A stretch of DNA of 42,329 nucleotides, taken from Bacteroidota bacterium (GTDB lineage: Bacteria > Bacteroidota > Bacteroidia > Bacteroidales > FEN-979). Positions 20,726 to 35,811 of the stretch are shown one piece after another. The position numbers were made by a program, and so were the translations under genes. How positions within the stretch are numbered: position 1 is the stretch's first letter; each line of letters starts with the position of its first letter. A model generated the notes under the pieces. The model searched no databases and was not told where the DNA came from. It saw only the letters and a list, made by a program, of their open reading frames with translations. Location of the stretch: the NCBI GenBank assembly GCA_026391845.1, contig JAPLDG010000205.1:19477-61805 (forward strand). The letters run 5' to 3'.

Positions 20726-21763
20726 ATGAAAAGAATTGCAATCTTTTGTGACGGAACCTGGAATACCCCCGACGAACAGGAAAACGGCAAACCCTGTCAG
20801 ACCAATGTCGTAAAGCTGGCCAATGCGCTGAGTGCCAAATCTTCAGACGGTACCATACAAAAACTCTATTACGATCTTGGAATCGGCTCTGAGGGAAACT
20901 TGTTTAAAAAGGTTTTTGATGGCGCAACAGGCACCGGTATTTCTGAAAATATCCTCCAGGCATACCGGTTCATTATGAACAACTACGAGCTTGGAGATGA
21001 GCTCTTTTTGTTCGGATTCAGCCGGGGAGCTTTTACCGTGAGGAGTTTATCCGGACTGATCAGAAACTCTGGCATCCTCGATGTCAGGAATGCCGACAAA
21101 ATTGAAAAGGCCTATGCACTCTATCGTTCAAGGCATCCTGCATATCATCCAAAATCTGAAGAGGCCACACTCTTCCGGAAAACCTATGCGGTTGAAGAGT
21201 CAACAAAAATAAAATTTATCGGGGTCTGGGATACTGTGGGAGCGTTGGGAAACCCGCTTTTCGTCCATGGAATTTTAAACGGGCGCAATGAATTTCACGA
21301 TACCGAATTATCTTCAAAAATTGAAAACGCTTTTCATGCGCTGGCCATAGACGAGAAAAGGAAAAGTTTTCCGGCTACCCTATGGCATCAGCAGAAAGAT
21401 GTAAAAAACCAGGTGCTGGAGCAGGTATGGTTTGTGGGTGTACACTCCGACGTGGGAGGCGGTTATCCTGAAAGCGCTTTGTCGGATATTCCATTGCAGT
21501 GGATGCTCGAAAAAGCGCGGGGTTGCCATCTGAGCTTTGAACCACTTGAACTACACCCCGACCCGCTGGGATTGAAACATGAATCGATGAAATGGTACTA
21601 CAGGTTAAAAGGTATCCTTTACCGGCCGATTGGGGTAAAGAATTCCGACACTGCAAATACAAATGAGAAGCTGCATCCCTCTGTGCTTGAACGACTCAAA
21701 AAAGACTCCTCTTACCGGCCACACAACCTGGTTCACCTTTTCGCATCACTGAAACGGTGCTGA
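20726..21763 (+). CDS. DUF2235 alpha/beta-hydrolase (Tle1-like fold)
   Basis: A 345-aa protein of the DUF2235 family. It opens with RIAIFCDGTWNTPD, the usual start of the family. The nucleophile is S99 in GFSRGAF (GxSxG), the acid is probably D169 in GVWDTVGALG, and the histidine is H240 in GVHSDVGGGYPE. The fold is shared with type VI secretion phospholipase effectors of the Tle1 group, but there is no signal peptide, no VgrG/PAAR and no immunity gene in this window. It follows the toxin-antitoxin pair by 44 bp. A cytoplasmic esterase or lipase of unknown substrate is the safest reading. Confidence 0.87.
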   Translation: MKRIAIFCDGTWNTPDEQENGKPCQTNVVKLANALSAKSSDGTIQKLYYDLGIGSEGNLFKKVFDGATGTGISENILQAYRFIMNNYELGDELFLFGFSRGAFTVRSLSGLIRNSGILDVRNADKIEKAYALYRSRHPAYHPKSEEATLFRKTYAVEESTKIKFIGVWDTVGALGNPLFVHGILNGRNEFHDTELSSKIENAFHALAIDEKRKSFPATLWHQQKDVKNQVLEQVWFVGVHSDVGGGYPESALSDIPLQWMLEKARGCHLSFEPLELHPDPLGLKHESMKWYYRLKGILYRPIGVKNSDTANTNEKLHPSVLERLKKDSSYRPHNLVHLFASLKRC

Positions 21764-21875: not shown

Positions 21876-23363
21876 ATGCTTTTCACTTCTATCCCATTTG
21901 CACTGTTTTTTTTAATAGTATTCATACTGCACTGGATTGTTTTTAACGGAAAACCTTCCTGGCAGAATGCTGTTTTGCTCATCAGCAGCTATATTTTCTA
22001 TGGATTGTTCGGATGGAAATTTGCATTGCTTTTGTTTCTAATTTCATCTGTTAACTATTCTCTTGCCCTGCTCATCCAGAGATCTGAAATCAAAACCACG
22101 AGGAAATTATTCCTCCTTACAGGTTTGATCCTGAACGTTGGAACCCTGGTTATTTTCAAATACTATAACTTTTTTATCGAAACTTTTAGTGATGTGATTT
22201 CGTGGGTTGGACTGCAACCGAACCTGCTAACACTGAACCTTGTCCTCCCGGTTGGAATCAGCTTCTATTTATTTCTTTCACTGAGTTACATTCTCGATGT
22301 GTATCAAAAAAAACTGGTCGCAGTAAGCAAAGCAGCAGATGTTATGCTTGCGCTTAGTTTCTTCCCGATTATCCTTGCCGGTCCGATCCACAGACCAGCC
22401 GGGTTACTTCCCCAGATTCAAAAAAATCGTTCATTCAGTTTTCTGCTGGCTACTGATGGTCTTAAACAGATACTGTGGGGCTTATTTATGAAAGCACTCA
22501 TTGCAGATTCATGCGCGGGTTATGTCAATACGATATTCGCCAATACGAGCACCTACCCTGGAAGTACGCTGGCAATCGGAATCATGCTTTTTACCGTTCA
22601 GATCTATGCTGACTTTGCCGGATATTCAAACCTCGCCATCGGTATCTCAAAATTACTCGGGTTCAGCATCATGCAGAATTTCGCCTACCCATATTACGCC
22701 CGGGATATCAGGGAATTCTGGAAAAGATGGAACATATCGCTTACCACATGGTTCAGGGATTATGTTTTCCTACCCATTGCTTATTCCACTTCAAGAAAGC
22801 TCAAATCGGACAATTTTTTGTGGATGAAATCAGAAACGGTTATCTACCTGGTCGGGATAACGATTACCTGGATGCTGACCGGTCTCTGGCATGGGGCAAA
22901 TTTCACATTCATCATCTGGGGTGTGATCCATGGATTTTTTCTGTTCCTCTATCATATCGGCATGAAGCCCAGGAAAAAGCTCATGTCAAAACTGGGGATC
23001 AGCCTGAACAATAAAATATTTGTCTTTTTTGAAACTTGCTTCACATTAATTATTGTCATGGTGTCATGGGTTTTTTTCAGGGCCGACAGCACCTCTGCTG
23101 CGTTCGATTATCTGTCAAAAATTGCCTCACGATCATTCTTTGCCGTTCCCAGGTTAACACAATTGACCGGTTTTTATACAACCATGGCATTTGTTTTATT
23201 CTTTTTTATTGTGGAGTGGTTTGGTAAAAAGGACGAATACGGACTTGCCCGTCTCGGCTCCCGCTGGCCAAAGGTGTTAAGGCTGACTATGTATTACGCA
23301 ATAATCGTTGTGGTTTTTTGGTTTTCAGGTGAACAACAACAATTTATTTATTTTCAATTTTAA
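21876..23363 (+). CDS. MBOAT O-acyltransferase (AlgI-like), copy 1
   Basis: A 495-aa polytopic membrane protein of the membrane-bound O-acyltransferase family. Conserved features are LILNVGTLVIFKYYNFF, GISFYLFLSLSYILDVY, FWKRWNISLTTWFRDYVFLP and the active-site stretch GLWHGANFTFIIWGVIHGFFL with H339 and H352. The C-terminus FIYFQF is typical of the AlgI group. These proteins move acyl groups (usually acetyl) across the membrane to be attached to exported polysaccharides with the help of an SGNH/AlgJ-type partner. The partner gene begins 4 bp downstream. It is a close relative of copy 3 at 33376-34860, in which the two histidines have the same residue numbers. Confidence 0.95.
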   Translation: MLFTSIPFALFFLIVFILHWIVFNGKPSWQNAVLLISSYIFYGLFGWKFALLLFLISSVNYSLALLIQRSEIKTTRKLFLLTGLILNVGTLVIFKYYNFFIETFSDVISWVGLQPNLLTLNLVLPVGISFYLFLSLSYILDVYQKKLVAVSKAADVMLALSFFPIILAGPIHRPAGLLPQIQKNRSFSFLLATDGLKQILWGLFMKALIADSCAGYVNTIFANTSTYPGSTLAIGIMLFTVQIYADFAGYSNLAIGISKLLGFSIMQNFAYPYYARDIREFWKRWNISLTTWFRDYVFLPIAYSTSRKLKSDNFLWMKSETVIYLVGITITWMLTGLWHGANFTFIIWGVIHGFFLFLYHIGMKPRKKLMSKLGISLNNKIFVFFETCFTLIIVMVSWVFFRADSTSAAFDYLSKIASRSFFAVPRLTQLTGFYTTMAFVLFFFIVEWFGKKDEYGLARLGSRWPKVLRLTMYYAIIVVVFWFSGEQQQFIYFQF

Positions 23364-23367
23364 TCGG

Positions 23368-25656
23368 GTGAGCGAACTTCAAAAATTTCTCAGGGTATTT
23401 CTCAAAAGATCAGTTATTCTGCTTCTGATTTTTTCCCCCCTTCTGTTCTATAATATTGTCCTTGACCCTTATGGCATATTCTTTTACCTCAGTGGCCCTT
23501 CCAGAATGGAACCCAATAAACGATTCATGAAACTGAGGTATGTTTTGAAAAACCCTGACAAATTTGATTCCTTTATTTTTGGATCTTCCAGGGCAAATTC
23601 GATTGATCCTCAAAACATCCGGAACGGAAAGTATTTTAACATGACTTACTCGAATGGCGTTCCGCGGGACCACTACAGGGATGTCAAACTGATGATTCGA
23701 AATGGTGTACAGATAAAAAACCTGCTGATCGGGATTGACTTTTTATCGCTGCTGGAAAACCCGAAGATCGTCGAAAACGATCTTCTGCGACAACCGTACC
23801 CCATTTCATTGAAAGATAAATTCAATTTTTTCAAAAGCTATATCCTCTTCCGGCCGGCAAAACGGGTAATCGACCTGACACTTTCAAAAAAGAAAAACGT
23901 TGATGAGACGAAACTGTATACATCCGGAATTGTTTTTGACACGACTGCCGATTATTATGCCCGTTTTGAACCCCAAAACCATGTAAATTCAAAAACTTTT
24001 TTAATTCCATTCGGCAACTACCAGGATTTTCCTGATGTTGAATCAGCAATCTGCGAAATCGACAGCCTGGTACGGTTTGCACGGGCCCATAAGATTAACA
24101 TCAATATTTACGTCAACCCCACCCATGTTTCAAGCTATATCAACATCAACCTGGATGCTTTTTATGATGCACTCTCACGCCTGGCATCAGTAACGGATTA
24201 TTACGATTTCAGCGGGATAAATTCAGTTACCATCAACAATCTTTATTACCACGAAACATCCCATTTCTATCTCAACGTAGGCGACATGATCATCGACAGG
24301 GTTTGTGGCCAAAAAACCGTTACCGTACCGGATGATTTCGGATACATGGTCAATAAATCAAATATAGAAAAACATATTGTAAGTCAAAGAAAGATGGTTG
24401 CGCGCTATTTCGAAGGCACTGATCCGACATTGCGCTACCATCGCCCGGTAGATTTGTACTCGCTGCGGAAGTCTGAAAAACAACCTGAACTTTTTTTAGA
24501 CAAGATCAACGGATTGCCCGTTTCACCCTCTGCAGAAACCATGCTCATTCCAACACCACTGATCCGGGTCGAAGGAAGGATGGTTGCTGAAAAGTCCGGT
24601 TCTCCGTCGGGCAAGATATTTGTAAAGATCGGAGAAAAGCTTTTCGAGGTTACCCCGAATAAAGCAACGAAACAACTCAATACATCTGGTGATGGAAATG
24701 ATTTTAAATACAAAGGCTGGAGAGTGTTTATTCCATCCCGGTTTGTTAAGGAAGGGGAGCAGGACCTGTCCTTGGTTCAGATGAATCCAAACAACAGGGA
24801 ATATGCGGTTACAGGGAATTTTAAAAAAGTGAAAGTAATTCTTCAAAAAAAGGTTGTACGTCTTGAATCTCTGACACCACTGGACCAGAAAGCCAGCCTT
24901 TATGTTGACTTTATCAACGGAAGAAGCCCTGGCAAATTCAACGTTCTTTTCGACAATCAGCACTTCATCAATTTAAAAGGATGGGCTATTGACCTTCAGG
25001 CAAAACAACACAGCGGGGGCGTTATAGTCTATCTGGATGAAAAGCCTTTTATTTCACAGTTCATTTTCGAGCGGCAGGATTTGGCAAGAAAAATGAAACC
25101 CGATGAAAAGATTGGCGCCGGATGGGGAATTGTTATTCCGGTCGATAGCCTGGAAGAAGGCATACATGACCTCACCTTTACAGTATTGAATGCTGACCTT
25201 AACGGATATTTTTCTTCTGATTTGAAATATCAATTTCAGTACGTCAAAACAGAAGGAGAGGACCTTTTAAAGGGCGCTACTGCTTCAGATGAAACGACTG
25301 CCTATTCGGTCGATTTTATCAATGAAACAGGGGTGGGAAAAGCAAGACAACCTATTGTTGCTGCTGAACCGACCATCAGGCTGTCGGGTTGGGCGGTAGA
25401 TCGTCCCGGGAACAACGTTGCAAAGGCTGTCAGTCTTGAAATTGACGGAAAATCATTCAAGGCGTTTTATGGATTCGACCGCAAGGATGTTGCCAGGTAT
25501 CTGAAAAGCGAAATTTATCGCAATTCCGGATGGAAGGCTGAAATACCAGCATCTTCTATTGGTAAGGGAGAACATAAACTTCTTCTGAAAATACTGGCAA
25601 ACAACAAGATGGTTTATTATTCCACGATAAAACCGGTTGTTTTCACCGTGAAATGA
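23368..25656 (+). CDS. SGNH-like acyltransferase partner with three beta-sandwich modules
   Basis: A 762-aa protein read from a GTG at 23368, 4 bp after the MBOAT stop; no ATG precedes the membrane helix (FLRVFLKRSVILLLIFSPLLFY, about residues 5-30). Residues ~55-310 are a DltD/SGNH-like domain with FGSSRANSID (S73/S74) and, at the other end, ETSHFYLNVGDMIIDRV (H299), where glutamate 296 stands at the acidic position. Three beta-rich modules follow (about 379-490, 509-626, 647-761), each with a GW/GR start, an R-x-D-[VL]-A or equivalent, a GW turn, and an L..G.H.L end. The same module occurs in the proteins at 27581 and 31324. Its place beside an MBOAT suggests O-acylation of an exported glycan; the modules may hold that glycan (inference). 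Confidence 0.85.
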   Translation: MSELQKFLRVFLKRSVILLLIFSPLLFYNIVLDPYGIFFYLSGPSRMEPNKRFMKLRYVLKNPDKFDSFIFGSSRANSIDPQNIRNGKYFNMTYSNGVPRDHYRDVKLMIRNGVQIKNLLIGIDFLSLLENPKIVENDLLRQPYPISLKDKFNFFKSYILFRPAKRVIDLTLSKKKNVDETKLYTSGIVFDTTADYYARFEPQNHVNSKTFLIPFGNYQDFPDVESAICEIDSLVRFARAHKININIYVNPTHVSSYININLDAFYDALSRLASVTDYYDFSGINSVTINNLYYHETSHFYLNVGDMIIDRVCGQKTVTVPDDFGYMVNKSNIEKHIVSQRKMVARYFEGTDPTLRYHRPVDLYSLRKSEKQPELFLDKINGLPVSPSAETMLIPTPLIRVEGRMVAEKSGSPSGKIFVKIGEKLFEVTPNKATKQLNTSGDGNDFKYKGWRVFIPSRFVKEGEQDLSLVQMNPNNREYAVTGNFKKVKVILQKKVVRLESLTPLDQKASLYVDFINGRSPGKFNVLFDNQHFINLKGWAIDLQAKQHSGGVIVYLDEKPFISQFIFERQDLARKMKPDEKIGAGWGIVIPVDSLEEGIHDLTFTVLNADLNGYFSSDLKYQFQYVKTEGEDLLKGATASDETTAYSVDFINETGVGKARQPIVAAEPTIRLSGWAVDRPGNNVAKAVSLEIDGKSFKAFYGFDRKDVARYLKSEIYRNSGWKAEIPASSIGKGEHKLLLKILANNKMVYYSTIKPVVFTVK

Positions 25657-25672
25657 ATCAATCTTTTCTCGT

Positions 25673-26911
25673 TCACTTCTTCGCTTCGGCTGAATAGCAA
25701 TACACCCACCCGTCATATCCTGCAACAACCAGGTTGTTGCCATCCAGGGCTGGTGCGCCAAAAATTCCACCAAGCTTTCGGTACATTGTATGCATGTCGA
25801 GGGGTGTAACGATTAACTTGACAATGTCGTCTCGGAAAGCATCATTGGGTTTTAGCCAGTCAAGATGGTTTGCCTTGTAACTGTCCAGTTCTGCTGTCCA
25901 TTTGATTTCGCCATTCGTAAGGTCAACTCCATGAACCTTGCCTCCCAGGGTTCCGAAATAACCCATTTTTTTACCGATCGCACAACCTCCGGAAACAATA
26001 AACCCGGCCGGAGCCTGCCATAATTGTCTGCCGGTGCGGATATCGAATGCAAATAATGAACGATCATCGGCAGTGCCCACATAGATCACCGTATCATTGG
26101 CGGTAACCGGCAATGACCAACCCGACGAGAACTGTTTCATCCAGTTACAAAACCCACCTCTCATGTCAATCGCGTATAGATTGTAGTCTCTCGCACCTGT
26201 AAAAACCATCCCGGCTGCAATGACCGGACTGCCGGTTACCTCTCCTGTTGGAAAAGAATATTTTCCGGTAGTTTTGAATTTCCAGGCCAGGGTGCCTGTT
26301 TTCCGATCAATGGCATATAAATTTCCGTCGAATGAACCGGCATAAAGCCAGTTTTTGCTGATCGCCGGCCGTGAATGAACCAATCCTCCGGTTTTATAAG
26401 TCCACCTGAGGTAACCATCCGTGATGGAAAGTGCATATACGTATTCTCCTGAGCCAAAATAGATCGTTGAATCAACAATCACCGGCGTGGAATTATAATA
26501 ATCGGCATAATCGTGCTGGAGGTCGCCTAAATATCCCGTCATCGTCTGAAAAATACCATCAACCCTTCCGGAATCCTTATCCATCCTGTATAGATAGCCA
26601 TCGCTGCTCAGCAGGAACAAACGCTGCGTGGCAATACAGGCCGAAGAACGGATTGGTCCGCCTGTCAGTAATTTCCATTTCAACTTTCCTGTTGCCAGAT
26701 CCAATGCATATAACGCGCTGTCCAGACTGCCAATAAAGGCGGTCCCCCCGTCAATAACAGGTGTACCGACAATCGGTCCGTTTGTTTTAAATTTCCAGAG
26801 AAGATCGGGTTTTGCCGTAATATCGACCGGCAAAGGGTTAGGATTTTCAATGAGTTGGCTGTTTGCATGATTAACAACCAATAACAGCAATATAAGGATC
26901 TTAATTTTCAT
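25673..26911 (-). CDS. Secreted PQQ-type beta-propeller protein (BamB-like)
   Basis: A 412-aa protein with a signal peptide (MKIKILILLLLVVNHANSQ) and PQQ-like repeats filling the rest. Blade signatures recur: DLLWKFKTNGPIVGTPVIDGG, ALYALDLATGKLKWKLLTGGPI, GYLRWTYKTGGLVHSRPAIS, NLYAIDRKTGTLAWKFKTTGKY, SLFAFDIRTGRQLWQAP, KVHGVDLTNGEIKWTAEL. The fold is shared by BamB and quinoprotein dehydrogenases; residues needed for PQQ binding cannot be judged here, and no dehydrogenase domain is present. I chose the ATG at 26911 since the frame's earlier ATG at 26932 lies between the -7 box and the signal peptide. It sits inside the glycan locus but has its own promoter. Confidence 0.85.
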   Translation of the reverse strand: MKIKILILLLLVVNHANSQLIENPNPLPVDITAKPDLLWKFKTNGPIVGTPVIDGGTAFIGSLDSALYALDLATGKLKWKLLTGGPIRSSACIATQRLFLLSSDGYLYRMDKDSGRVDGIFQTMTGYLGDLQHDYADYYNSTPVIVDSTIYFGSGEYVYALSITDGYLRWTYKTGGLVHSRPAISKNWLYAGSFDGNLYAIDRKTGTLAWKFKTTGKYSFPTGEVTGSPVIAAGMVFTGARDYNLYAIDMRGGFCNWMKQFSSGWSLPVTANDTVIYVGTADDRSLFAFDIRTGRQLWQAPAGFIVSGGCAIGKKMGYFGTLGGKVHGVDLTNGEIKWTAELDSYKANHLDWLKPNDAFRDDIVKLIVTPLDMHTMYRKLGGIFGAPALDGNNLVVAGYDGWVYCYSAEAKK

Positions 26912-26929
26912 ATGCGTGATTGTTTGATG

Positions 26930-26960
26930 CAAAGATACAACTAATTAAAAACCGGACAAG
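26930..26960 (-). promoter_or_regulatory. Promoter of the beta-propeller gene
   Basis: Minus strand: CTTG (26960-26957), 19-bp spacer, TATCTTTG (26937-26930). Both boxes and the spacing match the consensus; the leader is about 15 nt to the ATG at 26911. Confidence 0.65.
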
Positions 26961-27003
26961 TCACGTGTACCTGTCACCATTTTTGTCACGCGTCACCTGT
27001 CAC
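26960..27003. repeat. Five GTCAC pentamers
   Basis: GTCAC begins at 26960, 26973, 26985, 26992 and 26999, around the stop codon of the small membrane protein and just upstream of the beta-propeller promoter. Spacing is irregular, so it is not a simple tandem repeat. Confidence 0.5.
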
Positions 27004-27370
27004 GCACCACCCTCTTCAATGTCCCTTGCCTGCGTTTTCTAACCCCCCAGATGGCGGTTGCAGGAATCACGAAAATAGCTGTCGGGATTGTCGATTCAAC
27101 CGGTTTTGGAGTGCCCTTCATGCTGTGAACGCCATAAGTCAGCCCGATGGAAACAGCCGAAGGGATGACCATTGCTGCCACCAAAGCAAGCGTTCGTCTG
27201 CCGATCCTTGTTGCCAGGTACTCGCATCCGCGCATGATGGCACCCCCGAACAGAAAAGTATAACTTCCCTGTTTCAAAGCGGCAGTTGATGCTCCAACCA
27301 AATCATCGGTATCATGGTAATTTATTCCAAAAACAATGCAACTCAACACACCAGCCCCGATAAATCCCAT
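26993..27370 (-). CDS. Small membrane protein of unknown function
   Basis: A 125-aa protein with about four hydrophobic segments: GFIGAGVLSCIVFGI, YTFLFGGAIMRG, TLALVAAMVIPSAVSIGLTYGV and STIPTAIFVIPATAIWGV, then a basic tail GVRKRRQGTLKRVVRDR. I do not recognise the family. The start is uncertain: the same frame stays open upstream of the ATG at 27370 all the way to the stop of the previous gene at 27581, about 70 codons without ATG, GTG or TTG, and that stretch reads like plausible protein (FKRITVFGNRFVDYK just before the Met). It follows the beta-module protein by ~210 bp, and no promoter was seen. Confidence is moderate that it is expressed. Confidence 0.6.
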   Translation of the reverse strand: MGFIGAGVLSCIVFGINYHDTDDLVGASTAALKQGSYTFLFGGAIMRGCEYLATRIGRRTLALVAAMVIPSAVSIGLTYGVHSMKGTPKPVESTIPTAIFVIPATAIWGVRKRRQGTLKRVVRDR

Positions 27371-27580
27371 TTTATAATCGACAAACCGGTTACCAAAAAC
27401 AGTGATTCGTTTAAAAAGGGTGGAATTGTTGGTTCGCTTTCTGTAGATGTTGGGTTTCAGATAAGATATGTTTTTGATAACATTAGGGTTTGTGAAAGGA
27501 TTTAAGGATGTCGAAGTGAAAAGAATTAACTCATTAACCTCATCCTGTTCCTGTTGAAAATCCTTATCAAAAAACAGAAT

Positions 27581-28504
27581 CTATTTGCCAATATCGATAA
27601 ACTTTTGGCTATACACAAGAGTAACGTATAACCCTAACTGATAATTGCCTGCTTCTAAATTTTCCGATGAAATGGTTGCTTTAAAACCAGTCGAATCCAG
27701 GTTGAATCCATATTTGTTAAAAGCCTTGGTAATATCCTTCCTTTCCCGAATGTTAACACTAAAAATATATTTCTTCCCGGGTTTCTTTAAAAGTATATAC
27801 GATTTGAGGGATCCTGCATCCAAACCTGTTAAAAAGGCCCATCCGACGATTGTTGAAATCTTTCCGGTGCTTTCAACTTTATCGAAAAAATAACTGATCT
27901 TTTTTGTCGGCTTTTGAATATCTAAAGATACCTGATGTGACACTGGTTCTGTTCCAACCTCAGTTTCTGGCTTTGATCCTGCATTAAGTAAAAAAGCCTT
28001 TCCGCCTGATATTTTTAACGTTTCGTTGGTAAGGGAATAATATTTCCCCGTTTCATCCTCAACAACAAATCCAATCTGATAAGCAAATTCTTTGAGCTGG
28101 TATAAAGGCAAAAACAACTCAAATCCATGATTGTCAATTCCTCCAACCAACTGAAAGGTTCGCGAAACATCAGGTCGGCTAAGGTCGTCTTTTACAATAT
28201 CAAAAATGAGGGTTTCACCTTTAGACTTAAGTACGAAATACAAATTTCTATTTCCCTTTTTTAGGTTTTTGTTAAAGACCCAACCGCTGATGCACAAAGC
28301 ATCTTTATCATTCAATGTCATCGGTGTTAACCTGTCAATTTGAAAACTAGGATTATCTGTTTTTATCGGTAAGCTGATATCAACCAATCTTGCCTCTCCT
28401 TCAGCATCATTAGATCCATTGAAAACGGTATGGTTAAAAAAAAGATATAGAATCACCAATATTGGTGGGATTATAATCATGGCAATCCGCTTCCCGTTTT
28501 TCAT
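27581..28504 (-). CDS. Membrane-anchored two-module beta-sandwich protein, copy A
   Basis: A 307-aa protein with an N-terminal anchor helix (residues ~7-27, IAMIIIPPILVILYLFF) and a periplasmic part. After a juxtamembrane EARLVDISLP sequence come two related modules: A (about 55-165: ALCISGWVFN ... LSRPDVSRTF ... DNHGFELFLPLYQL ... YQIGFVV) and B (about 190-305: TIVGWAFLTG ... ERKDITKAF ... DSTGFKATISSENLEAGNYQLGLYV). The protein at 31324 has the same layout. Order in the operon is MBOAT 2, AlgJ-like protein, then this gene 46 bp later, so it probably serves that acyltransferase. No enzyme motif is visible; a binding or scaffold role is inference. I recognise no named family. Confidence 0.78.
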   Translation of the reverse strand: MKNGKRIAMIIIPPILVILYLFFNHTVFNGSNDAEGEARLVDISLPIKTDNPSFQIDRLTPMTLNDKDALCISGWVFNKNLKKGNRNLYFVLKSKGETLIFDIVKDDLSRPDVSRTFQLVGGIDNHGFELFLPLYQLKEFAYQIGFVVEDETGKYYSLTNETLKISGGKAFLLNAGSKPETEVGTEPVSHQVSLDIQKPTKKISYFFDKVESTGKISTIVGWAFLTGLDAGSLKSYILLKKPGKKYIFSVNIRERKDITKAFNKYGFNLDSTGFKATISSENLEAGNYQLGLYVTLVYSQKFIDIGK

Positions 28505-28550
28505 TTAATTCCCTCCAGCATTGAAAAAGTATCCCACGGACTCATTAGAA

Positions 28551-29690
28551 TTAATACAAATTAACAAAATAATCGAGCTCACGTTCAACCGTTTCACTAA
28601 TCACTATATCGGGCTGTTCGATAGCTATAACATCCTTATTTACTTTACTGTAAACAAATATTGTTTCACCAAAACTCTCAGCAATATATCGAACTAAACT
28701 AGCAAGGAAAGAATCGCCAAAAACCAATACTTTTAACGGTTTCCCTGTACAAGTAAAACGACGTTCATATGTTGATGGTTCACCGAAATGATCTTTGGGC
28801 ATAGGTAATTGCTGTTTGCCTTCGACTGCCTGTGGCATTTCTAAAGGACAAAGCCGTATATCGTATTCGATCAAATTCGTTTGCAGCGTTTTACAAAAAT
28901 CTTTCTGCCCACTTTCTGCGGTGTCAATTCTGAAATTATTGAGACTCAGAGGTGAAACTTGGGGAAAATCCAACTTAATCCATTTGATTAGCGTATAATA
29001 TCCAAGATAGGCCCCTGCCTGGTTCCAATGGCTGTCTGTCTTATGATACAGCCTTACATGAGGCAATAGCACGAAATCTTCCTTCAAATCAATGACCCGG
29101 ATATTCCTTTTTGCCAATTCCTCTGTAATCTGCTCTAATTTGGTAGGTCTTGGGGACTTCTCAATTGGTAAAAACTGCCCATAGACAGTTGCTTTCCCCG
29201 GTGCGACAGCAAAATAGAATTTAATCCCTTTTTTAAAGAGGTATGAGTTATAATAAGCAATGTTATCTGCACATTGTTTCAATTCGTCTGGTCCAAATAC
29301 TTTTATTCCTTTTGATTCCTTTATAGCATCACTGTTAATGTCGCCAATAAAAAACCAACCTTTTTCTCCAATAACAACTCTGTCGGGAACAGGGCTGACG
29401 TTAAAAATATGCATTTTAATGTCTCGATACAATCGGAATAAAACATTTCGAAAAGGCATGTTATCATTAACATATTTGTTGAACCCTGCTAAAAAGTCAG
29501 AGGCCTCATGATACGATTCAATTCCATCTTTCAATTTTAAAGCAGGCATTTTAGGCATAAGCGCCATTGGCCTGTTTTCAAAATTCTGCGTATTTTTATA
29601 CAATCCAGTGATCAGGAAAAATGACGGGGAGATAATCAACACCAAAAAGATGCATATCAGAAGGATGTATATGAATGATTTATTCTTCAT
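28551..29690 (-). CDS. AlgJ/AlgX-like SGNH acetyltransferase
   Basis: A 379-aa periplasmic enzyme anchored by an N-terminal helix (YILLICIFLVLIISPSFFLI). The ALGX/SGNH-like domain has D219-S-H221 in KTDSHWNQAGAYLGYY and the nucleophile S327 in VLVFGDSFLASLV, which together make the Ser-His-Asp triad of AlgJ and AlgX. GEKGWFFIGD near residue 105 is another hallmark. In alginate and similar systems this protein takes the acetyl group delivered by the MBOAT protein and puts it on the exported sugar chain. The MBOAT gene ends 2 bp upstream, so the pair is translationally coupled. Confidence 0.92.
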   Translation of the reverse strand: MKNKSFIYILLICIFLVLIISPSFFLITGLYKNTQNFENRPMALMPKMPALKLKDGIESYHEASDFLAGFNKYVNDNMPFRNVLFRLYRDIKMHIFNVSPVPDRVVIGEKGWFFIGDINSDAIKESKGIKVFGPDELKQCADNIAYYNSYLFKKGIKFYFAVAPGKATVYGQFLPIEKSPRPTKLEQITEELAKRNIRVIDLKEDFVLLPHVRLYHKTDSHWNQAGAYLGYYTLIKWIKLDFPQVSPLSLNNFRIDTAESGQKDFCKTLQTNLIEYDIRLCPLEMPQAVEGKQQLPMPKDHFGEPSTYERRFTCTGKPLKVLVFGDSFLASLVRYIAESFGETIFVYSKVNKDVIAIEQPDIVISETVERELDYFVNLY

Positions 29691-29692
29691 TG

Positions 29693-31171
29693 CTAAAATC
29701 TTGCGTAGATAAAAGCATTATAGGTGCCCACTATGATATGCGATATGGAAACAATAAAAAGGAGTGATAAAAAAATCACCCCGGCAAACGAAATCAAATT
29801 TCTGTAATATGAATTCATCTTCATGAACATCGCAGCTTTTTCTCTCATCATGGGATAAACCGGAGTAGAAAATATAATTGCAATCAACGTCATGAACAGG
29901 ATTTCATGATTAAGATAAAAAAACCGCAGGTAGCTGTTTAGAGAAACATCTCCATGTGAAAAAGAGAACAACTTTACAAAATAGTTTGCTGCCTGATGCA
30001 GGTTTTCTGTTCTGAATATAACCCAGCCAAACACGATAACCAACAGTGTGTAAAGATGCTGAAGGGGTATAGGACCACGTTTCAGGATCCTGCCGAACCC
30101 GATATGTTCAATGGAAATGAAAATTCCGTACCATAGTCCCCAGGCAACGAAATTCCAGGAAGCACCATGCCAGATTCCGCAAGTAAGAAAAGTGATGAAG
30201 ATCGCTAAAAGATAAATAATGTGATCTGTTCGGACGGTCAGATAAGATTCCTTTTTCAACTTCCTTGAGACGGAATATGCCATGGGCAGGAACAGGTAAT
30301 CTCTTAACCACGAAGATAAGGTGATGTGCCATCTCTTCCAGAACTCCTGTATATTTCTCGAAATATATGGATAATTAAAATTTTCCGGGAAGTCAAATCC
30401 AAACATCTTGCCTAACCCGATTGCCATGTCAGAATACCCCGAGAAATCAAAGTAAATCTGAAAAGTATAGGCGATAATCCCGCCCCAGGCCATTGATGTT
30501 GATAATTCCGATAACGGTGTGCTAAAAACACTATCGGCTGCAATCGCAAAGGTGTTGGCCACTATCATTTTTTTTGCCAGCCCGATAATAAACCGCTCAA
30601 TTCCTTTAGAGAAATTGGTGATACTGATATTTTTTTTTGTAAGCTGTTGCTGAATATCAATATATCGCACAATCGGCCCGGCGATCAATGGAGGAAACAT
30701 AGCAACATACGTGGCAAACTCAATGAAATTACGGCTGGCTTTTACTTTCGAATGATATACATCCAGCGTGTAGGAGATTGTTTTAAAAGTAAAGAAGCTA
30801 ATTCCAAGCGGGGCTGCCAAACCAGGAAGTGCTTTCAAATATGAAAATTCTATGCCAAAAAAGGTCAGAAAATCATGGAACGCCGTAAATGTAAAATTAT
30901 AATACTTGAAGAATCCCAGTAACAGCAAGTTAATAAGAAGAGAAAGAATCAGTCCCAACTTCCTTTTCCCATCTTCAATCAACAGCCCGCAATTATAATT
31001 TGCAACTGCCGAGTATAAAAGAATCAACACAAATACCTGATCACCCCAGGTGTATAAGGCCAGGCTGAAAAGCAAAAGAGAAAAGTTTTTTAATTTCCCG
31101 GGAACAAAATAAAATAATCCAAGGGCCAATGGCAAAAACAGAAACAGAAAAATAATACTGTTGAACTGCAT
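29693..31171 (-). CDS. MBOAT O-acyltransferase (AlgI-like), copy 2
   Basis: A 492-aa polytopic membrane acyltransferase paired with the AlgJ-like gene that follows. Core motifs: LGFFKYYNFTF, GISFFTFKTISYTLDVY, EFWKRWHITLSSWLRDYLFLP and GIWHGASWNFVAWGLWYGIFI. H335 is present, but the second histidine of the usual WHG...HG pair is a tyrosine (Y348) here, while both are kept in copies 1 and 3. Otherwise length and helices are normal. It starts 152 bp after the upstream beta-module gene, and no promoter box was recognised there, so read-through from 32332-32362 is likely. Confidence 0.94.
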   Translation of the reverse strand: MQFNSIIFLFLFLPLALGLFYFVPGKLKNFSLLLFSLALYTWGDQVFVLILLYSAVANYNCGLLIEDGKRKLGLILSLLINLLLLGFFKYYNFTFTAFHDFLTFFGIEFSYLKALPGLAAPLGISFFTFKTISYTLDVYHSKVKASRNFIEFATYVAMFPPLIAGPIVRYIDIQQQLTKKNISITNFSKGIERFIIGLAKKMIVANTFAIAADSVFSTPLSELSTSMAWGGIIAYTFQIYFDFSGYSDMAIGLGKMFGFDFPENFNYPYISRNIQEFWKRWHITLSSWLRDYLFLPMAYSVSRKLKKESYLTVRTDHIIYLLAIFITFLTCGIWHGASWNFVAWGLWYGIFISIEHIGFGRILKRGPIPLQHLYTLLVIVFGWVIFRTENLHQAANYFVKLFSFSHGDVSLNSYLRFFYLNHEILFMTLIAIIFSTPVYPMMREKAAMFMKMNSYYRNLISFAGVIFLSLLFIVSISHIIVGTYNAFIYARF

Positions 31172-31323
31172 GAAACAAAAAGCATTATTTAGTGGTTAAC
31201 ACTCTATTCTTCTGTACACTCCAGATTAATCAGTTATTCACCATCTACTCTTTCAGAAGCATGCTGCATGCCATCAGGAATAAAAATGGAAGAGCAAAGA
31301 AGGTATCTGCCAAAACAGATCAT

Positions 31324-32253
31324 CTATTTTTCGATAGTGATCGGTTTTTTGTTGTAAACGATTCCGGCCTGGTTTCCATTGATGATGTACAAACCTACCT
31401 CATAATTTCCACTTTCCAGATTTGATATTGGAATTGAAGATGTAAAACCGGATGAATCAAGGTTAAGCTTCTCTTTAATTAAAACTCTTGTTACGTCGGC
31501 TCTGAGAATTAAACTAACATCATAAACGGTCACCTTTTTATCTTTCTTCAACAGGATAAAGGTGTTTTTTGAGCCGGCATTCATCCCCTTTAAAAATCCC
31601 CATCCGGTAACGTTGATATAGTCACCAGACTGCTTAACCTTATCGAAACAACAGGTTATTTCACGGGTTGGTTGAACAAATTTCAAATCCACTTTATGCG
31701 CAATTGTTCCGGGATCTGATCCTGCTTCAACTTTTAGGGGAGAACCATCGTCAGGGATGATTAAATTTTTATTTGCACTTACATAATATTTTCCTGTCCC
31801 ATCCATGATGACAAAACCAACTTTATAAGAGTCACCTTTAATCAGCTCTTTCGCCGGAAATGTAACAACAAATCCGTGGCTGTCAACAAGGCTGTCAAGG
31901 TGCAATGCCGCCGAAACGTCAGGTCTGGACAGACTGCTCTTTGTTATTTTATAAATGAAGGAGTTGTTTTTCGAACTAAGGACCAGGTACATGTCTCTTT
32001 TCTCCTGGGCCGCGTTTTCTTTACAAACCCAACCGCGAATAGAGATAGCATCTTTCCATCTCAGCTTGGTTCTTTCAACGATGTCCAGGACATTTTTCAT
32101 TTTTCTTGTCTCTGTAGGAATTTGGATATCTGCTATTCTTGCCTCATCGTCTGATACCATTTTGACATTATAATAATAAAGTCCGGAAATCAGAACAACA
32201 ACTAACACTACGGCTGCAATAATATTGGTGGTCATTTTTTTACTCACTGCCAT
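31324..32253 (-). CDS. Membrane-anchored two-module beta-sandwich protein, copy B
   Basis: A 309-aa paralogue of the protein at 27581. The anchor helix spans about residues 9-28 (TNIIAAVVLVVVLISGLYYY), then EARIADIQIP, then module A (AISIRGWVCK ... LSRPDVSAAL ... DSHGFVVTFPAKELIKGDSYKVGFVI) and module B (INVTGWGFLKG ... LRADVTRVL ... DSSGFTSSIPISNLESGNYEVGLYI). Both paralogues stop within a few residues of the same point. It has its own promoter and, unusually for this phylum, a full AAGGAGG Shine-Dalgarno, so it is probably well expressed. Function is unknown; position between two MBOAT/SGNH pairs points to a part in glycan acylation or display. Confidence 0.78.
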   Translation of the reverse strand: MAVSKKMTTNIIAAVVLVVVLISGLYYYNVKMVSDDEARIADIQIPTETRKMKNVLDIVERTKLRWKDAISIRGWVCKENAAQEKRDMYLVLSSKNNSFIYKITKSSLSRPDVSAALHLDSLVDSHGFVVTFPAKELIKGDSYKVGFVIMDGTGKYYVSANKNLIIPDDGSPLKVEAGSDPGTIAHKVDLKFVQPTREITCCFDKVKQSGDYINVTGWGFLKGMNAGSKNTFILLKKDKKVTVYDVSLILRADVTRVLIKEKLNLDSSGFTSSIPISNLESGNYEVGLYIINGNQAGIVYNKKPITIEK

Positions 32254-32432: not shown

Positions 32433-33370
32433 TTAATCCAGATACCGCCTGATCTTGATAATATTTAAAACCAATTGATTGAATTGCATCACACCATTTA
32501 TATTCAAATGATCCCTGTCGTAAAAACAGCCATATGAACTTCCTATTCTGCTGGTATTTGTATTATAATAGTCAATGCCATACGATTGAAAAAAGTGATC
32601 AATCTCCTTGTTATTCTCAAAGGAATGATGAACAACATCTGTGACGGGAGCCTGGATAAGTATGGTTTGGTAATTCTGCTTTTTCAGAAATGCAATCGTC
32701 CGGTCAAAGGCCGCTACCTGGTCACTTCTTAACACCCAATGGAAAAGGTTGCCCTTCTGTTCCCCTTTAAAGCATAAAGGGTGCGTTTTCTCAACAAATC
32801 CGCCCAGGATGTAACACTCGCCATTTCGACATGCCGGTTCTTCAAAATTATCTTTAAAAAACCATTTCCTGTAAACATGGAATAAAACGCGTTGTACGTT
32901 ATCAGATTGTTGATCCTCAACGTCATCATAACAGTACCAATATTAATATCACTGTTTGTTATTAGATCCAATGAACTTTCAACGCCATCATTGGTAAACA
33001 CTCCCGGAAAAACCTCGAAAATCACCAGCTTTGGCTTCAACCTGTCAATATGTTCTTTCACCAGTATTTCCGTCTGTATCGGTGTTTGTGCGCTTGAACC
33101 AAGGTTAAATATTTTAATCCCTTTACTGGCAAAGATCCTTGGATCGAACCCCCTGTATGCATGTGAAGAACCGATCACAAGAATATCAACATGGCCGATG
33201 GTCTTCATCTCCTTCATCCTGGTATGTGTATACCCGCCCTCTCCCGTCTTGGTTAAGATGTTTTTATCAAATGCCTTCTGAGCCACAGTCCCCATTGTAC
33301 CGATAACGATGAATAAAACAAGCAGAAAAAACAGGGAAAACAAGATCAGGTGGAAAAGCAATTGCTTCAT
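32433..33370 (-). pseudogene. SGNH/DltD-like acyltransferase partner, split by a -1 frameshift
   Basis: Two frames make one protein. The first part (start 33370) has a membrane helix and VDILVIGSSHAYRGFDP (S68/S69), the nucleophile block of SGNH/DltD-like proteins, and runs into a stop at 32729. The second part, in the -1 frame to 32433, has GCFYDRDHLNINGVMQFNQLV, the D-x-x-H block. Sliding back one base at A-AAG-GGG (32768-32762) joins them into a 312-aa protein of normal shape with catalytic blocks at both ends. The cause may be a lost base in the G4 run, a sequencing error, or programmed frameshifting. It starts 5 bp after MBOAT copy 3, its likely partner. Confidence 0.82.
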
Positions 33371-33375
33371 CTTGC

Positions 33376-34860
33376 TTAAAATTTAAAATAGAGAAATTCT
33401 GTTGACTGGGTTTGGGCAAATAAAAAAATGAAGCAGATAAACAGGGTGTAAAAAGCCCATCGAAATATCCTGGGCCAATGAATACCTGTTTTTTCAATGG
33501 CAAACCTGTTGCCTCTTCCATACCACTCCAAGATAAAAAACATCAGAATCAGATACGTATTTGTAAGCTGTTTCATGAGCTGAAGCGGAAATTGAAATAC
33601 CGAGGAAGTGAAAACTTTATTAATCATCACCATGGCACCTTCAATGCTGTCGGCGCGAAAAAAGACCCAGGCAAAAGCCACAACCACCAAGGTCAGAATT
33701 GATTCTGTCCATAAAACGATTGGATTGTCATGACCTAATTTGAGAAACCTGAACAACCGTTTCCTTGGTTTTTTTTGCACCTGGTAAAGAATTAAAAAGA
33801 ACCCGTGAATCAACCCCCAAATAAGAAAGGTTGATCTGGCGCCATGCCAGATTCCCGTAATAAACCAAGTAACTGAAATCCCGATGGAATAAATTATATA
33901 ATCTGATTTTATAAAGAGAACATATTCGCTTCTGATCCTTTTTGAAACAGCATATACCATTGGTAAAAACAGGTAGTCTCTGAACCAGGTGGTCAGCGAT
34001 ATATGCCACCGTTTCCAAAACTCGCCAATGTTGCCGGCGAAATAAGGAAATGCAAAATTCCGCATCAGATCAAATCCGAGCAGCCTCCCTAACCCAATGG
34101 CAATATCTGAATAGGCAGAGAAATCTGCATAAATCTGAACCGTGAAAAACAATATTCCCAACAATACGGTCGCGCCATCCTGACTGCCCGGATCTTCAAA
34201 AATCTTATTGACAACCGGGGCAAGATTATCTGCAATCACAAGCTTGGTAACCAAACCCCACAGGATCTGTCTTAATCCAAGCACCATATTGGCGTAATCG
34301 AAAACTCTCGCCCTTTTTATTTCCGGGAGTAACATCGAAGGTCTTTGGATCGGACCGGAAAATATGATGGGGAAAAAACTCAGCGTCAATAAAACGTTTA
34401 CGGGATTCTGCTCAGGATTGATCGTCCTTCTGTAAATATCAACCAGATAGCTGACCGATAGAAAAGTATAGAAACTGATGCCAAGGAGAACGATGAGGGA
34501 CAGGGAAACTTTTTGAACCGCTATATCTAAAAAAGAACAAAATGCAACGAACTCTTCAACGAAGAAATTGAAATATTTGAAAACAATCAGATTTCCAAGG
34601 TTGATCACCAGCCCGGCGATCAACCAGGCTCTTCGATCAATTTTCTTTTCAGTACGCCCGATAGCTATTCCGATCAGATAATTACCCAGTGAAATGGCAA
34701 ATAACAGGAGCAGAAATTTCCAGCTCCAGAAAGCATAAAAAAAATAGCTCGCCAATAAGAGAAAAGCGTTTTGAAATCGAAGGGAAAACCTGTTTATCAG
34801 CCAGTAAACAAAAAAAAACAAAGTGAAAAACAGGGCAAAATAGAAGGATATAAAAGACAT
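33376..34860 (-). CDS. MBOAT O-acyltransferase (AlgI-like), copy 3
   Basis: A 494-aa polytopic membrane acyltransferase, close in sequence to copy 1 along its whole length (LVINLGNLIVFKYFNFF, GISFYTFLSVSYLVDIY, LSFFPIIFSGPIQRP, FWKRWHISLTTWFRDYLFLP). The active-site histidines are H339 (GIWHGARSTF) and H352 (LIHGFFL), the same numbers as in copy 1. The C-terminus FLYFKF is typical of the family. It lies 21 bp after the epimerase gene and 5 bp before the SGNH partner, inside the operon that starts with the giant transferase. Expected role: passing acyl groups across the membrane for O-acylation of the glycan made by the neighbours. Confidence 0.95.
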   Translation of the reverse strand: MSFISFYFALFFTLFFFVYWLINRFSLRFQNAFLLLASYFFYAFWSWKFLLLLFAISLGNYLIGIAIGRTEKKIDRRAWLIAGLVINLGNLIVFKYFNFFVEEFVAFCSFLDIAVQKVSLSLIVLLGISFYTFLSVSYLVDIYRRTINPEQNPVNVLLTLSFFPIIFSGPIQRPSMLLPEIKRARVFDYANMVLGLRQILWGLVTKLVIADNLAPVVNKIFEDPGSQDGATVLLGILFFTVQIYADFSAYSDIAIGLGRLLGFDLMRNFAFPYFAGNIGEFWKRWHISLTTWFRDYLFLPMVYAVSKRIRSEYVLFIKSDYIIYSIGISVTWFITGIWHGARSTFLIWGLIHGFFLILYQVQKKPRKRLFRFLKLGHDNPIVLWTESILTLVVVAFAWVFFRADSIEGAMVMINKVFTSSVFQFPLQLMKQLTNTYLILMFFILEWYGRGNRFAIEKTGIHWPRIFRWAFYTLFICFIFLFAQTQSTEFLYFKF

Positions 34861-34881: not shown

Positions 34882-35811
34882 TTACTCAAGGCTTTTCATC
34901 CATTTAATGGTTCTGTCGATCCCGTCATATACAGAAATCTTTGGTTCCCATTGAAGCTTTTCTCTGGCAAAAGAGATATCAAGCTCGCTGATGGGAACAT
35001 CAAATGCTCTTGCCTTTGAATAATTCCGGTCAACATTTTTCCCGGTTACCTGTTCGATATATCCAACTATTTCATTGAGGCTTAATGCGCTACCACTTCC
35101 AATGTTTATTTCGCAGCCGCTGACGGGAGCATCGATCAGTTTTATAAAGGCATCCATGACATCAGAAATGTAAATAAAATCGCGTTTAACTCTGCCATCT
35201 CCCCAAATGTTTATTTGCTGCCCGGTAATTGCTTTGTGACAAAACGCCGCGATGACGCCCTGAATAGAATCAACCCGCTGATATTCTCCGTAGGGGTTCG
35301 ACAACCGGATGGAACAAGTGTTCAGGCCGTGCATCTGGAAATAGAGTCTCAGATATTTTTCAATGGTCAGCTTGGTAATCCCATAGGAACAGGTTGGATT
35401 GGTCGGATGATTTTCGGGAATCGGAATGACAGATGGAATCCCATAAACGGTGCCACCGGATGATATAAAAATGAACCTTTTCACGTTGGCTTTAACAGCT
35501 TCATTCAACATTCTGATAGTACCCAAAACATTGGATGACACGTCAAAATCCGGATCTTCGTTCGATGTTTGAGGCAGGGTCGTGCACGCCAGATGAAAGA
35601 TCAAATCACATCCCTTGATTGCATCTGCTATCAGATGAGTTGCCGAAAAATCACCTTCGATAAATTCAACTTTTTCCTGCAACTTCCATCCGGGTTTATA
35701 CCGGTCAAGGCAACGAACACTATATCCAAGTGTAAGCAAACTCTTGGTAAGATGATATCCCTGGAAGCCGTTACCTCCTGTAATCAGGCAGCGTGCCGTG
35801 TTATTCGTCAT
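34882..35811 (-). CDS. NAD-dependent nucleotide-sugar epimerase/dehydratase
   Basis: A 309-aa cytoplasmic extended-SDR enzyme. The Rossmann motif is GGNGFQG (residues 12-18), then IEGDF and FHLACTTLP. The active site is FISSGGTVYG with Y143-x3-K147 (YGITK). Further family marks are RLSNPYGEYQ and WGDGRVKRDFIYISDV, as in UDP-glucose 4-epimerases and related dehydratases. It probably supplies a modified nucleotide sugar to the transferases; which sugar cannot be said. Its ATG overlaps the TGA of the giant glycosyltransferase (ATGA at 35811-35808), so translation is coupled. Confidence 0.92.
   Translation of the reverse strand: MTNNTARCLITGGNGFQGYHLTKSLLTLGYSVRCLDRYKPGWKLQEKVEFIEGDFSATHLIADAIKGCDLIFHLACTTLPQTSNEDPDFDVSSNVLGTIRMLNEAVKANVKRFIFISSGGTVYGIPSVIPIPENHPTNPTCSYGITKLTIEKYLRLYFQMHGLNTCSIRLSNPYGEYQRVDSIQGVIAAFCHKAITGQQINIWGDGRVKRDFIYISDVMDAFIKLIDAPVSGCEINIGSGSALSLNEIVGYIEQVTGKNVDRNYSKARAFDVPISELDISFAREKLQWEPKISVYDGIDRTIKWMKSLE

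Follow-up and report, generated by a model that had tools for sequence, protein, structure and literature searches.

A recurring Ig-like module fused to, or encoded beside, candidate surface-glycan enzymes in a Bacteroidota locus

The locus and its module copies

The DNA analyzed here, referred to as the window, is a stretch of 42,329 nucleotides from a Bacteroidota bacterium (assembly GCA_026391845.1, contig JAPLDG010000205.1, positions 19,477 to 61,805), and our subject is a domain, called the module, that occurs seven times in three of its proteins and that we regard as a candidate glycan-handling element. The locus is made up of three MBOAT-SGNH pairs, each with one module gene or fusion. 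A divergent plus-strand cassette consists of an MBOAT gene (21876..23363) and then the gene of its partner, an SGNH-type protein anchored in the membrane at its N terminus and carrying three modules at its C terminus (P0003; 23368..25656). The minus-strand order is a large glycosyltransferase, a sugar-nucleotide enzyme (assigned by eye), the third MBOAT (33376..34860; PF03062, E value of 6.7e-9), an SGNH-type gene split in two frames (32433..33370), stand-alone protein B (31324..32253), an MBOAT (29693..31171; PF03062, E value of 4.1e-24), a PatB1/AlgX-like SGNH protein that partners this MBOAT together with stand-alone protein A (28551..29690), and stand-alone protein A itself (27581..28504). 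Proteins A and B each have two modules, identified from a predicted structure in A and by profile match in B, behind a single N-terminal transmembrane (TM) anchor located by hydropathy. The three module-bearing genes lie where an earlier reading of the DNA without database searches, the sequence-only reading, had placed them.

The module copies were delimited by profile matches. On the plus strand, P0003 carries S1, which is degenerate (24460..24852, residues 385-515), S2 (24868..25254, residues 521-649), and S3 (25282..25650, residues 659-781). On the minus strand, protein A carries A1 (27992..28378, residues 43-171) and A2 (27590..27922, residues 195-305), and protein B carries B1 (31750..32127, residues 43-168) and B2 (31327..31680, residues 192-309). 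P0003 may start at GTG 23368 or TTG 23308, and its module residues are numbered on the 782-amino-acid open reading frame (ORF) from 23308.

The enzymes were assigned on several grounds. The plus-strand MBOAT, classed without a Pfam scan of its own, matched the same relatives as the two other MBOATs and has WHG and EFWKRW motifs. P0003 was assigned to SGNH by motif only, and a Pfam scan of it gave no match; its GSSR and SHF motifs also occur in a relative at locus L038 and a G-S/N-S-R motif occurs in one at L044, the motif alignment having been read for these three proteins only. The PatB1/AlgX-like protein matched PF16822 (E value of 2.9e-15; this ALGX model covers only residues 105-268) and Bacillus cereus PatB1 (5v8d; E value of 2.3e-7), and the module profile gave no match in it. 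The split SGNH-type gene (frames 32729-33370 and 32433-32735) lies upstream of protein B on the minus strand, with GSS in the first ORF and D-R-D-H in the second; its DUF1574/DltD-type matches were weak and below the cutoff, and it is either a pseudogene or an assembly error. Protein B would pair with this preceding split pair rather than with the pair that follows.

Three other proteins of the window stand beside these cassettes. A protein with a type VI secretion system Tle1-like catalytic domain (20726-21763, plus strand; PF09994, E value of 6.8e-87) is encoded directly before the plus-strand MBOAT, a PQQ/BamB-like beta-propeller protein (25673-26932, minus strand) lies between the divergent cassettes, and a protein of 2139 residues with WbsX, RgpF, GT1, and GT2 domains (35808-42227, minus strand) has, by eye, a charged repetitive stretch at about residues 230-560.

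Kinship of the copies and their relatives

The seven copies are relatives, as the sequence-only reading had proposed, and profiles and shuffle tests agree on this. Pairwise alignment scores, each compared with 300 shuffles, were 6.0 to 41.8 standard deviations (SD) above the shuffled scores among the four stand-alone copies, with 0 of 300 shuffles as high in all six pairs. Within the SGNH tail, S2 and S3 scored 25.4 SD, S1 and S3 scored 7.1 SD, and S1 and S2 scored 5.4 SD. Between the tail and the stand-alone copies, the pairwise signal was weak to moderate (0.1 to 8.0 SD over 12 pairs), and S1 was near chance against three of the four stand-alone copies; the link between the two forms therefore rests on profiles.

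Group profiles were compared at a threshold of E < 1e-3, using groups that had been gathered with a profile whose seed was the full set of seven copies. The sequence-only reading had expected such profiles to recover each other, and they do, most clearly through a group of other fused copies (n = 16, including two duplicates, since L051 duplicates L045), whose profile recovered six of seven SGNH-tail copies and, among the stand-alone copies, 12/12 of the first (N) and 13/13 of the second (C). The SGNH-tail profile recovered 5/12 N, 10/13 C, and 8/16 other fused copies. Each of the two stand-alone profiles found only two of the seven SGNH-tail copies but 12 of the 16 other fused ones. Probabilities from hhalign across the six group pairs ranged from 94.7 to 99.9%. 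A profile of the seven window copies matched 32 of 318 ORFs, that is, 30 distinct proteins of 315, consisting of the three window proteins and 27 further ones from fetched neighborhoods, and it matched none of 1,908 shuffled ORFs (E < 1e-3). The neighborhoods had been fetched for carrying relatives, so this search is a check of specificity and not of frequency. In the iterated module profile that delimited the window copies, the rounds after the first contain their own training copies.

The sequence-only reading knew of no named family for the stand-alone form. For the window copies, no Pfam or NCBIfam model matched at the cutoff and no PHROG matched at an E value of 0.01; the domain thus has no name in the libraries searched, while its absence from the literature was weakly tested.

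Relatives were met sparsely and across distant taxa. The genome searches sample the database, and the 13 stand-alone proteins and 19 fusions considered below are those met, not a census. Searching with protein A matched 7 of 149 relatives, its own genome included, with one (G141) matched by a fusion. A stand-alone profile matched 8 of 393 genomes of the order, with the stand-alone form found only in the genome of the window and in G020. The module profile matched 7 of 43 genomes of the family, 6 of 295 genomes of the order (one weakly), and 7 of 395 genomes of the phylum (one weakly and one dismissed), each count including the genome of the window. Weak module matches occurred in G677 (three) and G165 (one). 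Further loci are titled Desulfoarculaceae, PVC group, Bacteroidia, Chloroflexi, and Flavobacteriaceae (five new ones of 10 in one scan). A candidate carrier that is TonB-type by eye (L108) was dismissed as a chance match (E value of 9.7e-4 in the genome search and of 0.0072 and 0.0034 elsewhere). Viral contigs searched with protein A held no relatives among 14 stretches, and plasmids searched with two module queries gave no match.

Predicted fold and conserved motifs

An AlphaFold2 model of protein A (13 sequences; mean predicted local distance difference test [pLDDT] score of 79.3, predicted template modeling score of 0.49) consists of a TM helix and two beta modules, and S3 modeled alone (46 sequences) reached a mean pLDDT of 94.8. 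The stand-alone and SGNH-tail models have the same immunoglobulin (Ig)/E-set-like sandwich, which bears out the common beta-sandwich anticipated from sequence. In the three modeled copies, GW lies inside a long strand, R-x-D-V starts a short helix, and G-[FW] starts the next strand. These three marks are present in most of the seven aligned copies; S1 has GR for GW and is without the W and the R-x-D-V. The closing L-x-x-G-x-[YH], also put forward as a common mark, is not kept in copy 1 of protein A. The motif E-A-R-x-x-D-I-x-[LI]-P of the stand-alone proteins is present as described, except that it is not purely juxtamembrane: it extends into module 1, where the profile match begins at residue 43, and in 10 stand-alone relatives only its Pro is invariant, with Glu kept in at least nine. 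A V-x-L...P-T stretch precedes module 2 of the stand-alone proteins.

The structural matches admit a reading in which the module is an oligomerization or positioning domain that makes its enzymes dimers or trimers. The best matches of S3 are the C-terminal domains of sulfite oxidases and sulfite dehydrogenases (Z score of 10.0, root mean square deviation [rmsd] of 2.3, 96-97 residues), and the C-terminal domain of sulfite oxidase serves in dimerization. The stand-alone model has no structural match at a Z score of 8 or more; fibronectin type III (FnIII) domains and the C1 domain of the glycosyltransferase TarS reach 7.6, the TarS match being to module A1 and equal to that of the interleukin-12 receptor. 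TarS C1 and C2 trimerize (PMC5156392), and TarS C1 is absent among the 50 structural matches listed for S3. Since a shared common fold is weak evidence, since no sequence match to sulfite oxidase or TarS was reported, and since a stand-alone copy would gain little by self-association alone, we consider this reading improbable. S3 also matches Fn3-like and carbohydrate-binding module (CBM)-like modules of glycoside-active enzymes (Z scores of about 8.4 to 9.8). Taken together, the matches place the fold as Ig/E-set-like and leave its function undecided. Sequence searches of the PDB with P0003 and with the segment of a further carrier, L107, each gave a best E value of 0.47.

A related domain in enterococcal phage lysins

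The window module is homologous, by sequence and by structure, to the C-terminal domain of enterococcal phage lysins. When a 46-copy module profile was run against 177,635 PDB sequences, the sole match below 0.01 was EfAmi1 (8c4d_A, residues 197-300; E value of 3.1e-4), whose tail is described by its authors as unclassified, probably a new CBM, and absent from the crystal (PMC10167349). An EfAmi1-type C-terminal domain occurs in 57 phage records, 52 of them Enterococcus by name. The lysin of phage EF1, which is an Amidase_2 by Pfam although its record says muramidase, matched with an E value of 3.6e-6 when the seven window copies alone were used and with values of 5.2e-11 (whole sequence) and 5.3e-8 (best stretch) when the 46-copy profile was used. 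A reciprocal profile of the lysin tails recovered four module carriers at E < 1e-3 (best, 9.7e-5), with no SGNH tail among them. The profile-profile probability between lysin tail and module was 96%; as controls, none of 20 column shuffles exceeded 0.42%, and the amidase part gave 0.44%. In a viral structure library searched with Foldseek, the SGNH-tail module model placed the endolysin of Enterococcus phage Zip at rank 2 (E value of 3.1e-4, probability of 1.00, TMq of 0.61), a match that matters because the SGNH-tail profile alone links weakly to the lysins by sequence.

The lysin tails keep GW, R-x-D-V, and GF, and in the EF1 lysin two tandem copies are seen by eye on the alignment, with two stretches in PHROG 35916. 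The settings differ: the EfAmi1-type tail is fused to Amidase_2 in phages of Gram-positive hosts, its glycan binding being a prediction, whereas the window module sits on or beside other glycan-related enzymes and not on a peptidoglycan hydrolase. PHROG 35916, of unknown function, and endolysin PHROGs match the lysins but not the window proteins. Text on an enterococcal lysin (PMC12406537) and on LysEFm5 supplied no binding data for this comparison.

Stand-alone genes follow an enzyme gene

Each of the 13 stand-alone proteins has a single TM-like segment at its N terminus, located by hydropathy windows only, with the more positive charge on its N side, which suggests that the modules face the periplasm in all 13. 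The gene directly upstream on the same strand is an SGNH gene in three cases, a gene for a sulfatase-superfamily-like membrane enzyme in six, a split SGNH gene in one, and none of these in three. An SGNH or sulfatase-like gene thus directly precedes 9 of the 13 stand-alone genes but only 7 of 107 other genes (Fisher's exact test, P = 6e-7), and when the two neighbors that defined their own class are set aside the proportion is 7/11 (P = 2e-5). In four stand-alone genes, the gap to the sulfatase-like gene is exactly 0 bp.

Among these neighbors, the SGNH assignment at L014 was made by eye only (other SGNH queries gave E values of 1.4 and 4.3, and there was no Pfam match). The sulfatase-like proteins of L012 and L022 pass the PF00884 cutoff (E values of 6.8e-9 and 1.1e-5), those of L013 and L024 fall below it, and those of L014 and L026, which have no PF00884 match, were assigned by BLAST to that of L013 (E values of 1.9e-131 and 6e-71). 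All six have Thr in the column of the presumed nucleophile, together with an S/N-D-H-G motif, a combination that, by comparison with LtaS and EptA, suggests transfer of a phospho group rather than sulfate hydrolysis. The sulfatase-like gene also occurs without an adjoining module gene in three relatives (G069, G089, and G105), where it lies beside a methyltransferase-like gene, and the pairing of enzyme and module is therefore not obligate; in G008, the contig ends at the sulfatase-like gene. The conserved methyltransferase-like protein (about 458 residues; Pfam matches below the cutoff) is found beside or near the sulfatase-like enzyme in L121-L124 and near it also in L012, L013, L014, and L026, and the two genes are perhaps an unnamed pair of their own. 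A YidC-type insertase is encoded near the stand-alone genes of L013 (12548-13306; PF02096) and L014 (13092-13826; 78% identity).

A tree of the stand-alone proteins, built from 12 of the 13 with the one-module protein of L026 omitted, showed no clustering by partner class: the six changes of partner class compare with a shuffled mean of 6.4 (as low in 104 of 200 shuffles). Seven of its nine inner branches are open, however, so the tree is neutral on partner swapping. The sequence-only reading had suggested an accessory subunit of MBOAT/SGNH acyltransferases. The accessory part of that suggestion stands, in that the genes follow an enzyme gene, and the specificity does not: 6 of the 13 neighbors are sulfatase-like, 16 of the 19 fusions are not SGNH proteins, and one of the two MBOAT-SGNH pairs in L015 has no module directly behind it. 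A subunit specific to MBOAT/SGNH was rejected on account of the sulfatase-like neighbors and the non-SGNH fusions.

The position of these genes tightly behind an enzyme gene also suits a protein scaffold like AlgF, in which the module would bind proteins and bridge the SGNH or sulfatase-like enzyme to a membrane partner and to polymerase or export machinery. We treat this as a serious alternative and think it rather unlikely, because the listed Pfam matches of the stand-alone proteins include no AlgF family and because one module family occurs on unrelated enzyme folds and on phage lysins, whose common object is glycan and not one protein.

Fusions to other enzymes

The 19 fusions comprise three SGNH proteins (P0003, one in L038, and a contig-cut tail in L041), three PMT_2 proteins (L024, L027, and L037), two DUF6311 proteins (L017 and L104), one AT3 protein (L039), five multi-TM proteins with no Pfam match above the cutoff (L013, L025, L038, L040, and L106), one LptA/OstA-like protein (L027), three glycosyltransferase-type proteins (L039, with RgpF; L105; and L109), and one protein secreted by the type IX secretion system (L107). 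In all 11 multi-TM fusions, the module forms the C-terminal end. A strictly periplasmic module was rejected on account of two glycosyltransferase-type carriers without a TM-like segment, those of L039 (1709-4135; RgpF) and L109 (GT2); the third, in L105, is 2,290 residues long and has a single TM-like window.

Several single carriers deserve mention. The AT3 acyltransferase (L039, 6901-9918), for which hydropathy predicts about 17 TM segments, ends in a module, and the OstA/LptA-like protein with a terminal module (L027, 8333-10309) is an unusual tie to lipopolysaccharide transport. In the carrier of L109 (6274-10119), the second module copy cuts, by eye, into the GT2 domain, and this gene may have arisen by recombination or may be a chimera created during assembly. 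Literature searches for DUF6311 and for the combination of Bacteroidetes and glycan domain found nothing.

The weaker match in the secreted protein of L107 (E value of 2.9e-5, or 0.031 with the seven copies alone), together with the commonness of Ig-like domains, would be expected if the module were a generic Ig-like spacer without a dedicated role, repeatedly acquired by secreted and membrane proteins. Such a spacer would not be expected to fall in surface-glycan-type, multi-TM, or LptA-like proteins in 18 of 19 fusions, nor to recur as a stand-alone gene at one position behind an enzyme, and we think this explanation very improbable.

A possible glycan-handling role

We favor the reading, with a probability of about 0.48, that the module is a mobile glycan-handling module for glycan-tailoring enzymes, used in cis or in trans. 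Bacteria would attach it to enzymes, mostly membrane-bound ones, that assemble or modify surface polysaccharide. In the cis form, it would be the tail at the C terminus of an SGNH, GT-C-like, or AT3 protein; in the trans form, it would be supplied by a membrane-anchored two-module protein whose gene lies directly behind that of an SGNH or sulfatase-superfamily-like enzyme and whose product may pair physically with that enzyme. The module would most likely bind glycan and, by presenting the polymer, keep it near the active site, as is thought for the C-terminal CBM of AlgX. A glycan-handling role is favored because nearly all carriers share glycan as their object, namely, surface polysaccharide in the case of membrane-bound and soluble enzymes and the wall in that of the lysins.

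A number of results weigh against this reading. Glycan binding is a prediction for the window module and the lysin tail alike, and the top structural matches of the single module are the sulfite oxidase and dehydrogenase C-terminal domains, not CBMs. Of eight lysins searched with the 46-copy profile, those of EF1 and phiSHEF14 were significant, two were borderline (E values of 0.004 and 0.027), and four were not significant (between 0.95 and 3.5). With the window copies alone, only EF1 was matched (phiSHEF14, 0.53; DELF1, 7.9), the SGNH-tail profile alone gave a very weak link (7.6% probability), and the Zip endolysin superposes on the module model with an rmsd of 7.9 over 142 columns. At the gene level, the nearest upstream gene is neither SGNH nor sulfatase-like, by the criterion applied, for 4 of the 13 stand-alone genes, one of these lying behind the split SGNH gene, and two of the nine positive neighbors, the sulfatase-like gene of L013 and the SGNH gene of L014, had served as their own query. 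Finally, AlgF, which is the closest parallel in function, binds proteins but does not bind alginate (PMC10641220).

In a broader and tentative form, which we consider less likely than not, the module may be a general, interchangeable polymer clamp of the bacterial envelope, used in cis and in trans by unrelated membrane enzymes with acylating, phospho-substituting, or glycosylating activity on surface glycans and by phage lysins in finding the wall. To our knowledge, it is largely an open question by what means membrane acyltransferases and related tailoring enzymes locate their polymer once it is outside the cytoplasm. If the clamp were real, a separable domain common to MBOAT-SGNH, AT3, GT-C-like, and sulfatase-like enzymes and to lysin tails would be a testable common answer, and the anchored stand-alone proteins would represent a new type of subunit, one that binds substrate in trans and is able to partner enzymes of different chemistry. 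Accessory modules with a binding role are already familiar from glycan enzymes. The module profile helps to recognize proteins that lack annotation in surface-glycan loci, as well as a lysin domain that has not been classified.

Comparison with known systems

One structural likeness is that to the C-terminal, dimerizing domain of sulfite oxidase, the top match of the single module (at the Z score given above), which belongs to an unrelated pathway and for which no Pfam match is listed for S2 or S3 (matches listed to an E value of 10, most above about 0.1 being filtered). TarS, an enzyme that tailors a wall polymer, has a pair of Ig-like domains stacked on each other and gives the structural match to the stand-alone model noted above, which ties with that of the interleukin-12 receptor; its C1 and C2 are described as a trimerization domain of stacked CBM-like modules (PMC5156392). 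TarS differs in being a trimer, and the 13 PDB sequences that the module profile brought up at an E value of 10 or less do not include it.

The alginate system offers parallels to both forms of the module. AlgF, like the stand-alone proteins as predicted, has two tandem extracytoplasmic beta-sandwich domains, and it works with MBOAT and SGNH proteins in the periplasm (PMC10641220). The AlgF family is not among the listed Pfam matches of either stand-alone protein (up to an E value of 0.5, most above about 0.1 being filtered), and, unlike AlgF, the stand-alone proteins are also paired with sulfatase-like enzymes and have modules that are fused to other enzymes. AlgX shares with P0003 a beta-sandwich at the C terminus of an SGNH acyltransferase, one jelly-roll CBM in AlgX and three Ig/E-set-like modules in P0003. 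According to a review, this CBM may be the reason that AlgX, unlike AlgJ, binds alginate oligomers (PMC9487903).

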